Source of the DNA: Gloeomargarita sp. SKYB120
GTDB lineage: Bacteria > Cyanobacteriota > Cyanobacteriia > Gloeomargaritales > Gloeomargaritaceae
DNA length: 64,000 bases
Assembly: GCA_025062155.1 (NCBI GenBank)
Contig: JANXAM010000002.1
Span: 1 to 64,000, forward strand
Direction: 5' to 3'
The notes beneath the pieces are model-generated. The model saw only the letters and a list, made by a program, of their open reading frames with translations, was not told the DNA's origin and made no database searches. The translations under genes were made by a program, and so were the position numbers. Shown in pieces: positions 56,384-60,658 of this stretch. Numbering within the stretch: the stretch's first letter is position 1; every line of letters begins with the position of its first letter.

Positions 56384-58903
56384 ATGATCCGGGCGGTGTT
56401 GATGGCGGGCGGGGCTGGGACGCGCTTGCGGCCGTTGACCTGTGATCTCCCCAAGCCCTTGCTGCCGGTATTGAATCGCCCCATTTTGGAGCACACGCTG
56501 GCCTGGTTGCGGGGGCACGGTCTAACGGAATGCATCGTCACATTGCACTACTTGCCGGATACGGTGCAGTCCTATTTTCAGGATGGCCGCGACTGGGGCG
56601 TGCGCTTGTCCTACGCGGTGGAGGAACTGCGTCCCCTGGGTACGGCGGGGTCAGTGCGCCAGGTTTTGTCTCTGCTGCCGGAAACCTTTGTAGTGGTCAG
56701 CGGCGATGTGATTACGGACATCAATTTGCAGGCGGCCATTCATTTTCACCGGCAACGGGGCGCCAAACTCACGGTCATGCTCACCCATGTCCCGGACCCA
56801 GCCGAATTTGGGGTGGTGATTACCGACAGCGAGGGGCGGATTGTGCGCTTGCTGGAAAAACCAACGCCGGGGGAAGTCTTTTCCGACACCGTGAACATCG
56901 GCGCTTACATTGTGGAACCGGAGGCGCTCACCTACCTGGCCCCTGACCAGCCCGCTGACTTTGCCCAGGACGTGCTGCCCTATTTGCTGGCCCAAGGGGA
57001 ACCGGTGTACGGGTTTGTGGCCAAAGGGTACTGGTGCGACGTGGGCAATCTGGACCGCTACCGCCAGGTGCAGTGGGATGCGCTCACCGGCAAGGTGCAT
57101 TTGTCGCCAGCGTACCGGCAAGTGCAAAACGGCTTGTGGCTGGGGGAACAGGTGCGCCTGGACCCGTCGGTGACCTGGGAAGCGCCAGTGCTGATTGGGC
57201 ACAACTGCCGCCTGGGGCCAGGGGTGCGCTTGGGGCCGGGGACTGTGATTGGCGACAACGTGATTGTCGAAGCCCAGGCGGACTTGAAGCGGGCCATTGT
57301 GCTCAACGGCGTGATGGTGGGGGAAGAAAGTCACCTGCGGGCCTGTGTAGTGGGGCGGGGCAGTCGCATCGGGCCGCGCGCGCAGGTACTGGAAGGAGCA
57401 GTGCTGGGGCATCTGTGCCAGGTCGGGGAAGAAGCCTTGGTGCAGGAACGCTGCCGGGTTTGGCCGGGCAAGTACATCGAGCCAGGGGCCACCGTCAACA
57501 CCAATCTCATCTGGGGCACGGGGGCGCGACGGCATCTGTTTGGCGTGCGGGGTGTCTCCGGCCTGGCCAATGTGGACATTACCCCTGAACTGGCGATGCG
57601 GTTAGGAGCCGCGTTTGGGTCCTGTTTACCGCCAGGGGCCAACGTCCAGGTCTCCCGCGACCAGCGCAAGGTTTCTCGGATGATTTCCCGCTCGGTGATT
57701 GCCGGGTTGATGTCGGTGGGGGTACAGGTGCAAAACCTGGAGGCGACCGCCATCCCCATCAGCCGCCTGGTGGCCCGGACATCCCACGTCGAGGGAGGCA
57801 TCCACGTGCGGCTGGACCCCGACCACCCTGGTCATGTGTTGATTGAGTTTTTGGATGCCCAGGGGCTGAACATTCCACCGGCGCTGGAGAAAAAAATCGA
57901 AGCCACCCTGGTGCGGGAGGAGTTTCGGCGGGCGGCGCTAGCGGATATTGGCGATATGGTGATTCCGGCGCGGGTGGTGGACCTGTACTGCGACGCCTTT
58001 GAGGGGCAACTCCAGGTGGAGGCCATCCGGCAATCGCGGGCCAAGGTGGTGGTGGACTACGCGCACGGGGTTTCGGGGGCCATCCTGCCGGAACTGCTGG
58101 TGCGGTACGGGTGCGACCCCCTGGTGCTCAACGCCAGTTTGCGACAAACGCCCCTGACCGCCGAGGAACGGGAAGCGTCACTCCAGCAATTGGGGCGCGT
58201 GGTGGAAGCGGTGCGGGCGCAGCTGGGGGTGCAGATTTGGGCCAACGGGGAGCGGCTGGTGCTGGTGGATGAAACGGGCCAAGCCATCCAGGGGTCGCGG
58301 TTGACGGCAGTGGTGATGGAACTCGTGCTAGCGGGACAACCCCGGGGCATGGTGGCCGTGCCGGTGACCACCAGCAGTCTTGTTGAGCAAATTGCTCGTT
58401 ACCACGAAGGCCACGTCATTCGCACCAAAGCCAACCCGACGGCCCTGATGCGTACCTGTCAAGAAAAACCGCGCATTTTGTGTGCTGGCAGCGGCGAATT
58501 GGGCTTTATCTTTCCGCAATTGCACCCTGGATTTGACGCCATGTTCACCACCGCCAAATTGCTGGAATTGCTCACCGTCCAGGAGCGGTCGCTCGCCCAA
58601 ATCAACGCCCATTTGCCCCAGGTGTTTTGGAAATCCCAAACCATTCATTGTCCGTGGCGGTTGAAGGGGGCCTGGATGCGTCATCTGGTGGAAACCCACA
58701 CGCCTGACCTGCTGGATTTAACCGACGGCGTGCGCATTTTTCCCCAGGGTTACGACCCGGATCATTGGGTGTTATTTCTCCCCGACGCCACCGAACCCCA
58801 ACTGCACTTTGTGGTCAACGGTTTAGAGCGGGAATGGGTGACCCATTGGGGCCAGGAATATCGCCAGCGGTTGCAGCAATTCATGGAACAACACCACGCC
58901 TAG
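56384..58903 (+). CDS. sugar-1-phosphate nucleotidyltransferase fused to degenerate phosphohexomutase
   Basis: An 839-residue protein. Residues 1-240 are a nucleotidyltransferase (LMAGGAGTRLRPLTCDLPKP, VVSGDVITDINLQ), like mannose-1-phosphate guanylyltransferase. Residues about 250-370 form a left-handed beta-helix (hexapeptide repeats LGPGTVIGDNVIVEA and similar). The remaining part is a phosphohexomutase fold, but the phosphoserine loop TASHNP is replaced by RLDPDHP (about residue 475), and the metal loop DGDADR by ANGER (about 620). The sugar loop GE-SGH reads GSGELGF. The nucleotidyl half is probably active; the mutase half is probably not. It would make an activated sugar for polysaccharide. 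Confidence 0.9.
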   Translation: MIRAVLMAGGAGTRLRPLTCDLPKPLLPVLNRPILEHTLAWLRGHGLTECIVTLHYLPDTVQSYFQDGRDWGVRLSYAVEELRPLGTAGSVRQVLSLLPETFVVVSGDVITDINLQAAIHFHRQRGAKLTVMLTHVPDPAEFGVVITDSEGRIVRLLEKPTPGEVFSDTVNIGAYIVEPEALTYLAPDQPADFAQDVLPYLLAQGEPVYGFVAKGYWCDVGNLDRYRQVQWDALTGKVHLSPAYRQVQNGLWLGEQVRLDPSVTWEAPVLIGHNCRLGPGVRLGPGTVIGDNVIVEAQADLKRAIVLNGVMVGEESHLRACVVGRGSRIGPRAQVLEGAVLGHLCQVGEEALVQERCRVWPGKYIEPGATVNTNLIWGTGARRHLFGVRGVSGLANVDITPELAMRLGAAFGSCLPPGANVQVSRDQRKVSRMISRSVIAGLMSVGVQVQNLEATAIPISRLVARTSHVEGGIHVRLDPDHPGHVLIEFLDAQGLNIPPALEKKIEATLVREEFRRAALADIGDMVIPARVVDLYCDAFEGQLQVEAIRQSRAKVVVDYAHGVSGAILPELLVRYGCDPLVLNASLRQTPLTAEEREASLQQLGRVVEAVRAQLGVQIWANGERLVLVDETGQAIQGSRLTAVVMELVLAGQPRGMVAVPVTTSSLVEQIARYHEGHVIRTKANPTALMRTCQEKPRILCAGSGELGFIFPQLHPGFDAMFTTAKLLELLTVQERSLAQINAHLPQVFWKSQTIHCPWRLKGAWMRHLVETHTPDLLDLTDGVRIFPQGYDPDHWVLFLPDATEPQLHFVVNGLEREWVTHWGQEYRQRLQQFMEQHHA

Positions 58904-59505
58904 TCCCGCGTCGCCTGATAATGAATTCGCCAAGGCGCTCCCCACCGCGACCAGCTTTCTTGGTTAAAGGGGGGCAACCACTGCTGGATCAGGGCTTGTT
59001 CCAGTTGCTTGCGGGGGCGGGTTTGCCAGGGCACTTCCCAATAAAAGGTCCAGCAAATTTGGGTGGTCAATCCGTAGCGCCGGTGAGCGTTCAAGTAGTG
59101 GCGCAAATACGTCTTGCAATCGTGATGTCCTTGCCAGCGTTGACGACTATTCACCGTCTCGCCGATATACAGAATCAGGGGCGCTGCCCGGTCTAGGACG
59201 AAATAAATGCAGGGGTCGCCTTGATGAAAACGGCTGGGGAAACGGAAAAAACGGTCGCTTTCACTACCCAGTGTAAAGGGGTCAATCAAAGGCAAGGTCG
59301 CACTCGTGTGCTGCGTCCAGAAATCGCCCTGAATGAAAACAGTTTGGTTCTGTTGATAACGGATAATGGCCTGCTTCCAATCCTGTAATTGTTCCAGCGA
59401 CCAGTCCAGCGGGGGCAGACCCGTGCGATAAACCCCGGGAGCGCTCATCGCCCGCCATTGCTGTCCATCAAATAGGTTGATTTGCTCAGGTTTGGTCATG
59501 GTCAT
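58900..59505 (-). CDS. GIY-YIG nuclease-fold protein
   Basis: About 201 residues. The GIY-YIG motif appears as CIYFVLDRAA and LYIGETVNSRQRWQGHH, with the catalytic Arg in NSRQRW. The preceding N-terminal stretch (EQINLFDGQQWRAMSAPGVY) and the following QALIQQWLPPFNQES, with Asn in the usual 'PFN' position, complete the fold. It is a cyanobacterial single-domain member with unknown target, not a UvrC. ATG 59505 (M at MTMTKPEQ) or 59499 is the start. Its stop shares CTAG with the stop of the fusion gene. Confidence 0.85.
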   Translation of the reverse strand: MTMTKPEQINLFDGQQWRAMSAPGVYRTGLPPLDWSLEQLQDWKQAIIRYQQNQTVFIQGDFWTQHTSATLPLIDPFTLGSESDRFFRFPSRFHQGDPCIYFVLDRAAPLILYIGETVNSRQRWQGHHDCKTYLRHYLNAHRRYGLTTQICWTFYWEVPWQTRPRKQLEQALIQQWLPPFNQESWSRWGAPWRIHYQATRD

Positions 59506-59575
59506 TCCCACCTTGGGCCTTATGGTATAGTAAAGTAAGCTTGGCCAAGTAGCTCGGGGACTGGGGGATGGGGCA

Positions 59576-60658
59576 ATGGCGTTGTTAGTCTTCAACGTTT
59601 TTCGCGGGCAATTTATTGACGTTATTGAGTGGCTGGACAAGACTAATACCACCTTGGTCTATCGGTTCGAGCGCTTCAATAACGAAATCAAACAGGGTGC
59701 CAAGTTGATAGTCCGGCCTGGCCAGATGGCGGTGTTTGTCAACGAAGGCCAAGTTGCCGATGTATTTTCCGAAGGGACGTATGAGCTTTACACCCGCAAT
59801 TTGCCTATCTTAAGCACGCTCAAAGCCTGGCCCCACGGATTTAATTCCCCCTTCAAAGCCGAGGTTTATTTCTTTAGCACCCGCAACTTCACGAATTTGA
59901 AATGGGGGACGCAAAACCCCATCACGCTGCGGGATGCGGACTTTGGGCCAGTGCGGGTGCGAGCGTTTGGGACCTATGCCATGCGCATTACCGACCCCCG
60001 CAAAATGCTGGAGCAATTGGTGAGCACTGATGGTCTGTTCCAGGTGGATGAAATTAGCAATCAAATTCGCAATGAGATTGTTTCCAGCTTTGCGTCGTGG
60101 TTGGGGCGTAGTCAGATTCCGGTGCTGGATTTGGCGGCGCAATATCGGGATTTGGGCAATAAAATTCGCGCGGAAATTCAACCAGATTTGGAGCGCTGGG
60201 GGATTGAGTTAACCCAGTTGCTAATCGAAAACATTTCCCTGCCGCCGGAAGTGGAAAAGGTGCTGGACAAGCGAGCTTCGATGGGGATTCTGGGGAATAT
60301 GCAGCAGTACGCCCAGTTCCAGGCGGCCAATGCGATAGAGACCATGGCGCAAAAACCTGGTAGTAGTCACCCAGCCGTGGATTGGGGCATGGGCCTGGCG
60401 ATGGGACAGCAGATTGCTCAGAATTTACAGCCCCAGAATGTCCCCCAACCGCCGCCCCCACCTACGGTTGCCCAGTGGCATTTGTCCCGCAATGGTCAGA
60501 CCTTTGGGCCATTTTCCCTAGAGCAGTTGCTGCAACAGGGATTGACACCCGATACCTACGTGTGGAGAGCAGGCATGTCAGGGTGGGTCAAAGCGGCTGA
60601 AGTTCCCGAATTGGCCAGTCGTTTCTCCCAGATGCCGCCCCCACCGCCGCCGGCGTGA
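59576..60658 (+). CDS. SPFH-domain protein with C-terminal GYF_2 domain
   Basis: A 360-residue protein. Residues 1-250 make an SPFH domain of the YdjI/'virion core' type (LIVRPGQMAVFVNEGQVADV, NLKWGTQNPITLRDADFGPV, EISNQIRNEIVSSFASWLGR, ISLPPEVEKVLDKRAS). After a linker rich in Pro, residues about 300-350 form a GYF_2 domain (WHLSRNGQTFGPFSLEQLLQ and YVWRAGMSGWVKAAEVPEL). SPFH proteins assemble at membranes. In Bacillus subtilis, ydjI is encoded with ydjG, a zinc-ribbon protein; the next gene here is of that kind, eight bases away. GYF_2 domains probably recruit proline-rich partners. Confidence 0.9.
   Translation: MALLVFNVFRGQFIDVIEWLDKTNTTLVYRFERFNNEIKQGAKLIVRPGQMAVFVNEGQVADVFSEGTYELYTRNLPILSTLKAWPHGFNSPFKAEVYFFSTRNFTNLKWGTQNPITLRDADFGPVRVRAFGTYAMRITDPRKMLEQLVSTDGLFQVDEISNQIRNEIVSSFASWLGRSQIPVLDLAAQYRDLGNKIRAEIQPDLERWGIELTQLLIENISLPPEVEKVLDKRASMGILGNMQQYAQFQAANAIETMAQKPGSSHPAVDWGMGLAMGQQIAQNLQPQNVPQPPPPPTVAQWHLSRNGQTFGPFSLEQLLQQGLTPDTYVWRAGMSGWVKAAEVPELASRFSQMPPPPPPA

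Follow-up and report, generated by a model that had tools for sequence, protein, structure and literature searches.

It has been reported that the non-catalytic protein GMPPA binds GDP-mannose and inhibits GMPPB (excerpt of PMC11228364), and that PGM5 (aciculin) has no measurable activity while it retains glucose-1-phosphate binding (excerpt of PMC7761743). In Streptomyces coelicolor, SCO1388 'appears to be a bifunctional enzyme' when judged by its domains, a transferase and a mutase part (PMC5982138, cited here from excerpts). According to the same excerpts, the presence of SCO1388 does not keep sco3028 (manB) mutants from behaving as PMM-deficient, and sco1388 mutations added to sco4238 or sco3039 mutants made no difference compared to the single mutants; the authors consider that SCO1388 probably contributes little GMP activity and that other S. 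coelicolor paralogues may supply some PMM. An insertion in SCO1388 altered actinorhodin production, the statements on its direction disagreeing within the excerpted paper (PMC6585502), and a frameshift in sll1496 has been described in one Synechocystis substrain (excerpt of PMC10068330). A further candidate source on such fusions, PMC5247666, was set aside, as its excerpted text assays three S. venezuelae pyrophosphorylases and makes no mention of a mutase. SCO1388 and sll1496 are placed in the fusion family discussed here by their descriptions. We take sll1496 to be the Synechocystis counterpart of the fusion, and KEGG K16881 to stand for a mannose-1-phosphate guanylyltransferase with a phosphomannomutase part. 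Such K16881-type fusions are alike in architecture by description, although their second activity lacks sequence support in the fusions read here. In the open-access PMC literature, no paper was found that names the mutase half of the fusion a pseudoenzyme.

The window, that is, the whole stretch of 64,000 nucleotides analysed from Gloeomargarita sp. SKYB120, carries on its forward strand a fusion gene of 839 aa (56384..58903) that joins a nucleotidyltransferase, a beta-helix and a phosphohexomutase. The nucleotidyltransferase domain occupies residues 4-231 (56393..57076, +; PF00483, E 2.9e-53) with its signature residues intact, and is followed by a left-handed beta-helix of hexapeptide repeats at about residues 250-370 (57131..57493, +; PF00132 and weaker related models) and by a pseudo-phosphohexomutase half at about residues 384-835 (57533..58888, +). 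In the latter, PF02878, PF02879 and PF02880 score over their cut-offs and place phosphohexomutase domains I-III at residues 384-746, the domain IV model being absent from the Pfam matches, and the sequence match to 1wqa has an E of 9.1e-51. A protein 100% identical over residues 1-839 is encoded on a contig of Gloeomargarita sp. SKYG116. Also in the window, the listed 5' ends of a GIY-YIG frame (58900-59652, -) and of an SPFH/Band 7 plus GYF_2 gene (59576-60658, +) overlap, and one of the two starts was probably set too early.

The family was read in 146 distinct fused proteins, comprising 58 of the window's class, the window protein among them, 12 from other cyanobacterial classes, 71 from Bacillota, four from Actinomycetota and one from Campylobacterota, with the half-gene L023 and the duplicates L012 and L013 (equal to L084 and L085) left out of all counts. 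At the transferase signature, 18 of the 20 positions examined are identical in 146/146, among them G10, G12, R14, P23, K24, D108, D112, E158-K159-P160, W217 and D219, while G9 is found in 142 and T19 in 143. To judge from these residues, the transferase half is a GMPP-like sugar-phosphate nucleotidyltransferase with a beta-helix; the NF052502 model (mannose-1-phosphate guanylyltransferase) gives the fusion 249.2 bits, below its cut-off of 440.

With regard to the mutase half, a structure predicted for 459 aa from an alignment of 4 rows (mean pLDDT 74.9, pTM 0.67) matches end to end the archaeal PMM/PGM 1wqa (Z 36.1 over 437 residues, 28% identity) and 9du5 (Z 36.3), with a best Foldseek E of 2.4e-36. 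A full-length AlphaFold2 model of the fusion, also from a 4-row alignment, was discarded at a mean pLDDT of 51.6. Together with the 429 residues aligned to 1wqa, the model bears out the view, put forward in a sequence-only reading of this DNA, that the fold is conserved over more than 400 residues. That reading had named a serine and metal ligands reaching the active site from elsewhere in the sequence as the case that would overturn it; at the level of topology the predicted model lends this no support, the order of its elements being unpermuted. By descent and fold, the half belongs to the alpha-D-phosphohexomutase superfamily. Archaeal PMM/PGM are the top-scoring mutases of known structure by sequence and share the fold over the whole half, but in the fusion the loops for serine, metal, sugar and phosphate have all been replaced; against the NCBIfam Arch_GlmM model TIGR03990 the half reaches 240.9 bits (cut-off 439).

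In a phmmer alignment to 1wqa spanning 429 query residues, TASHNPP is paired with RLDPDHP, QDGDADR with IWANGER, GGEENGG with AGSGELG and RASGTEP with LPDATEP, and the residues expected of an active mutase are missing from all four loops. The phosphoserine loop TASHNPP corresponds to RLDPDHP (residues 476-482; 57809..57829, +), with D478 at the phosphoserine position. The metal loop DGDADR corresponds to WANGER (residues 619-624; 58238..58255, +), where W619, N621 and E623 stand in place of all three aspartates of DxDxD. The sugar loop is GSGELGF (residues 702-708; 58487..58507, +), with S703 and E705 at the site of GE(x)S, and the phosphate loop RxS(G/N)TEP is LPDATEP (residues 799-805; 58778..58798, +), with L799 and D801 at the site of RxS(G/N)T. 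The arginine of GxRG has gone as well, being S392 within GVSG (57551..57562, +). The sequence-only reading had recognized the same replacements in the phosphoserine and sugar loops and also the loss of the metal loop, although its register for the latter, ANGERL, was one residue off. It had further considered the final T-E-P to be partly kept, which is true of the window protein, at a site outside the interval 57780-58520 that it gave, but is not a family feature, since T803 occurs in only 6/146 fusions. Its main statement, that the mutase half is not an enzyme, is well supported as far as sequence can tell, given the replaced loops in the window and the absence of the motifs from 146/146 fusions.

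SHNP, DGD[AG]DR and R[AP]S[GN]T[EQ]P do not occur anywhere in the sequence of any of the 146 fused proteins. The three mutase relatives in the window's own genome (L006-L008) and four solo mutases in two Bacillota genomes (L086-L089) keep the serine and metal loops, and because they do so while 0/146 fusions hold the motifs, loop replacement in the fusions is not a matter of chance. Position by position, the phosphate-loop arginine, the phosphate-loop serine and the full set of three metal aspartates are each found in 0/146, whereas a serine at the catalytic position is present in 42, of which 31 also have the first metal aspartate; the histidine of the phosphoserine loop is found in 2 and its asparagine in 10. 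Consequently the phosphoserine loop alone does not exclude chemistry in those 42 fusions, and the loss looks stepwise. The position of the first sugar-loop glutamate is a gap in 60/146, 60 of the 71 Bacillota rows have a gap in the sugar loop, and D-x-N-x-E stands at the metal-loop site in many Bacillota fusions. Twenty further Bacillota fusions or candidates, a subset of the transferase matches whose mutase half had missed the earlier mutase-half search, are without SHNP or DGD[AG]DR (0/20), and several of them are shortened. One of the 20, L205 (G418:C1:697650-700450), is the only such case with an arginine at the phosphate position, an aspartate replacing the serine there. L205 is the second fusion in its genome, beside L093, and the rest of its phosphate loop is of the dead type. 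Two Bacillota proteins considered as carriers of this arginine (L119 and L120) were rejected, as their arginine sits further on, off the aligned position. Similarly, an 838-aa frame in genome G016, considered as a fusion with intact loops, turned out to be an ordinary GlmM-like mutase in a frame open upstream.

These counts bear directly on the view that the half is a true mutase with a different set of catalytic residues, in a bifunctional protein. This view can draw on the domain-based description of SCO1388 (excerpts of PMC5982138), on the serine kept in 42/146 and the arginine of L205, and on D-x-N-x-E, which, to go by its residues, may have kept the ability to bind a cation in many members from Bacillota. 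On the other hand, no fusion among the 146 has the phosphate-site arginine or serine, the first sugar-loop glutamate is a gap in 60, the window protein lacks the serine and every one of the three aspartates, and the resident SCO1388 fails to rescue S. coelicolor manB mutants in the same excerpts. We therefore give this view hardly any credence. The manB genetics of Streptomyces agrees, indirectly, with a non-catalytic mutase half.

Among the Bacillota, shortened mutase halves in which no phosphate loop could be aligned are found in frames of 719 aa (L207), 712 aa (L210), 714 aa (L211) and 547 aa (L216), and their sequences read as further erosion of the dead half. Two different pseudo-mutase fusions coexist in each of the genomes G289, G327, G357, G408 and G432; the G-G-F-(I/V)-F-P sugar-loop region is present in one of them and absent from the other, which suggests two specialised paralogues.

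In a tree built from 48 of the 146 fused and 7 catalytic rows, which did not include L007 and L205 and whose root was not tested, all fused mutases fall on one side of a branch that sets them apart from the catalytic rows (SH-aLRT 100); L165, L006 and L008 sit on long branches, which makes its details unsure. The fewest changes required on this tree are one for the phosphate arginine, one for the phosphate serine, three for the third metal aspartate, seven for the first and nine for the catalytic serine. The mutase half is probably a pseudoenzyme of ancient origin. On this account, fusion brought a PMM/PGM/GlmM-like mutase together with a GMPP-like nucleotidyltransferase that has a beta-helix; loss of the phosphate site would have come early, by one change on the tree used, and loss of the serine and of the metal ligands later and more than once; the half would then have been retained by purifying selection for a non-catalytic job, and may control the activity or assembly of the nucleotidyltransferase, by analogy with the action of GMPPA on GMPPB. 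The likeness to that pair would lie in a non-catalytic partner regulating a GMPP transferase, a regulation that we infer for the fusion; it differs in that the non-catalytic member of the pair is itself a transferase paralogue (excerpt of PMC11228364), whereas the dead part of the fusion is a mutase domain within one and the same chain. PGM5 is likewise a phosphohexomutase fold without measurable activity, but it has kept substrate binding (excerpt of PMC7761743), whereas the fused domain, which is judged by its sequence, appears from the alignment to have lost its phosphate-binding residues.

Selection estimates show that the mutase half is under purifying selection which, in close pairs, is about as strong as that on the transferase half. 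Across 24 close cyanobacterial pairs from 26 genomes, the mutase has a median dN/dS of 0.046, the transferase one of 0.038 and the helix one of 0.061, with the mutase value above that of the transferase in 13/24. In 25 distant pairs, for which such estimates are unreliable, the mutase exceeds the transferase in 25/25 (0.418 versus 0.217), and in 47 pairs with close and distant ones mixed the values are 0.299 and 0.181, respectively.

As for distribution, a phylum-wide draw of 244 cyanobacterial genomes gave a transferase match at E <= 1e-75 in 103, and 102 of the 104 cyanobacterial matches of at least 50% identity lie in frames of at least 838 aa, in which the mutase half is found. The two exceptions, both in one cyanobacterial genus, are a 739-aa frame in G137 (L196) and a broken gene in G141 (L023, break near residue 268); six more cyanobacterial matches, at 38-40% identity, are in frames of 364-409 aa, and in 11 genomes of family f19, whose small genomes are probably picocyanobacterial, a search with the transferase half met 31-34% identity at best, the matching frames being 245-517 aa long. 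In Bacillota, a mutase-half match at E <= 1e-30 was obtained in 92/199 genomes; most of these matches fall in frames of about 800-940 aa, and the weakest include some solo mutases. Transferase matches of 42-51% identity in this phylum include both long frames and short ones (249, 254, 326, 365 and 366 aa among others). Two of the short ones, G290:C37:16087-16788 (254 aa, 51%) and G328:C1:2337083-2337805 (249 aa, 49%), have no room for a mutase half and are a natural comparison for its role. The fusion also occurs on records filed as plasmids, four from Actinomycetota (4/5 matches read, H4 left out) and one from Sulfuricurvum; three Streptomyces plasmid fusions share 39-40% identity with the window fusion across most of its length. 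Clustering of the frames of 20 loci (12.5-13.5 kb) and 14 kb of the window gave no evidence of an operon, although clusters 4, 5 and 8, which do not overlap the fusion gene, recur in 5-7 of 21 loci. No relative of the fusion was found among 57 pattern matches in viral contigs; 31 phage records matched, at 21.9-23.8% identity among the 10 matches listed, and PADLOC returned no match.

Could the half be a relic in decay that travels along with the transferase? The broken gene of G141, the 739-aa frame of G137, the shortened Bacillota halves, the sll1496 frameshift (excerpt of PMC10068330) and the higher mutase dN/dS in distant pairs would all be in keeping with decay. This is nevertheless highly unlikely, and already disfavoured by the selection estimate, in view of the close-pair dN/dS of 0.046 and of the 102/104 cyanobacterial matches in full-length frames. 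Purifying selection and near-constant co-inheritance in cyanobacteria are compatible with the role that had been suggested from the sequence, in which the half might serve the nucleotidyltransferase as a scaffold or as a sensor of ligands.

Conservation of the replaced loops, a check proposed in the sequence-only reading, was scored as positions conserved at 95% or more in 57 cyanobacterial rows of the window's class. Invariant sites were found, namely H474, R476, Q617, G622, E623, G702, G707, F708-I709-F710-P711 and L799-P800-D801 in 57/57; 14/31 loop positions reach the threshold, against 122/421 in the remainder of the half (p = 0.068). The former cleft might be a ligand pocket for a sugar phosphate, nucleotide sugar or other effector that signals to the transferase, as these invariant positions in or next to the loops and the ligand binding without catalysis of GMPPA (PMC11228364) and PGM5 (PMC7761743), both from excerpts, would suggest. 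However, conservation in the loops does not significantly exceed that of the remaining half, so that a repurposed pocket is a possibility and not a result; the phosphate-binding residues are gone and 60/71 Bacillota rows have a gap at the sugar-loop position, which leaves this proposal rather doubtful. A structural role without ligand, in folding, oligomer assembly or docking of another protein, has a somewhat better but less than even chance. It is consistent with a fold that is kept while catalysis is, to judge from the loops, lost, with shortened halves in some Bacillota fusions (719, 714 and 712 aa) and with the ability of mutase folds to act through protein contacts, as in the GlmM-CdaA complexes (7olh, 9g69) found among the structural matches of the half; by itself, it does not account for the invariant residues in the former loops.

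The pseudoenzyme account remains the preferred one; counting against it are the serine in 42/146, the arginine of L205, the dN/dS of distant pairs, the short Bacillota frames, the break in G141, the sll1496 frameshift, the loop conservation that falls short of significance, and the PMM that the S. coelicolor authors would partly ascribe to other paralogues. A bolder reading, which we regard as tentative and on balance unlikely, is that throughout a family present in at least four bacterial phyla the dead cleft has been rebuilt as an allosteric sensor within the chain, by which the supply of nucleotide sugars would be tuned, the term 'bifunctional' being wrong throughout; in cyanobacteria, HVRxxP, ANGE, GFIFP and LPDA are possibly the loops of such a rebuilt cleft.

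In the Gloeomargarita genome itself, a ManC-like protein (L004; TIGR01479 273.3 bits, below the cut-off of 372.95), a GDP-mannose dehydratase and the separate mutases with intact serine and metal loops are present, and therefore the fusion need not be the sole source of GDP-mannose. If the half is dead family-wide, metabolic reconstructions that credit it with phosphomannomutase activity in cyanobacteria, Bacillota and Streptomyces would be wrong on this point, and the real mutase would have to be sought among solo paralogues. The fusion family would then be a case of a sugar-phosphate enzyme turning into a regulatory or structural domain, of which the Bacillota fusions with the serine kept and the phosphate site lost may represent intermediate states.
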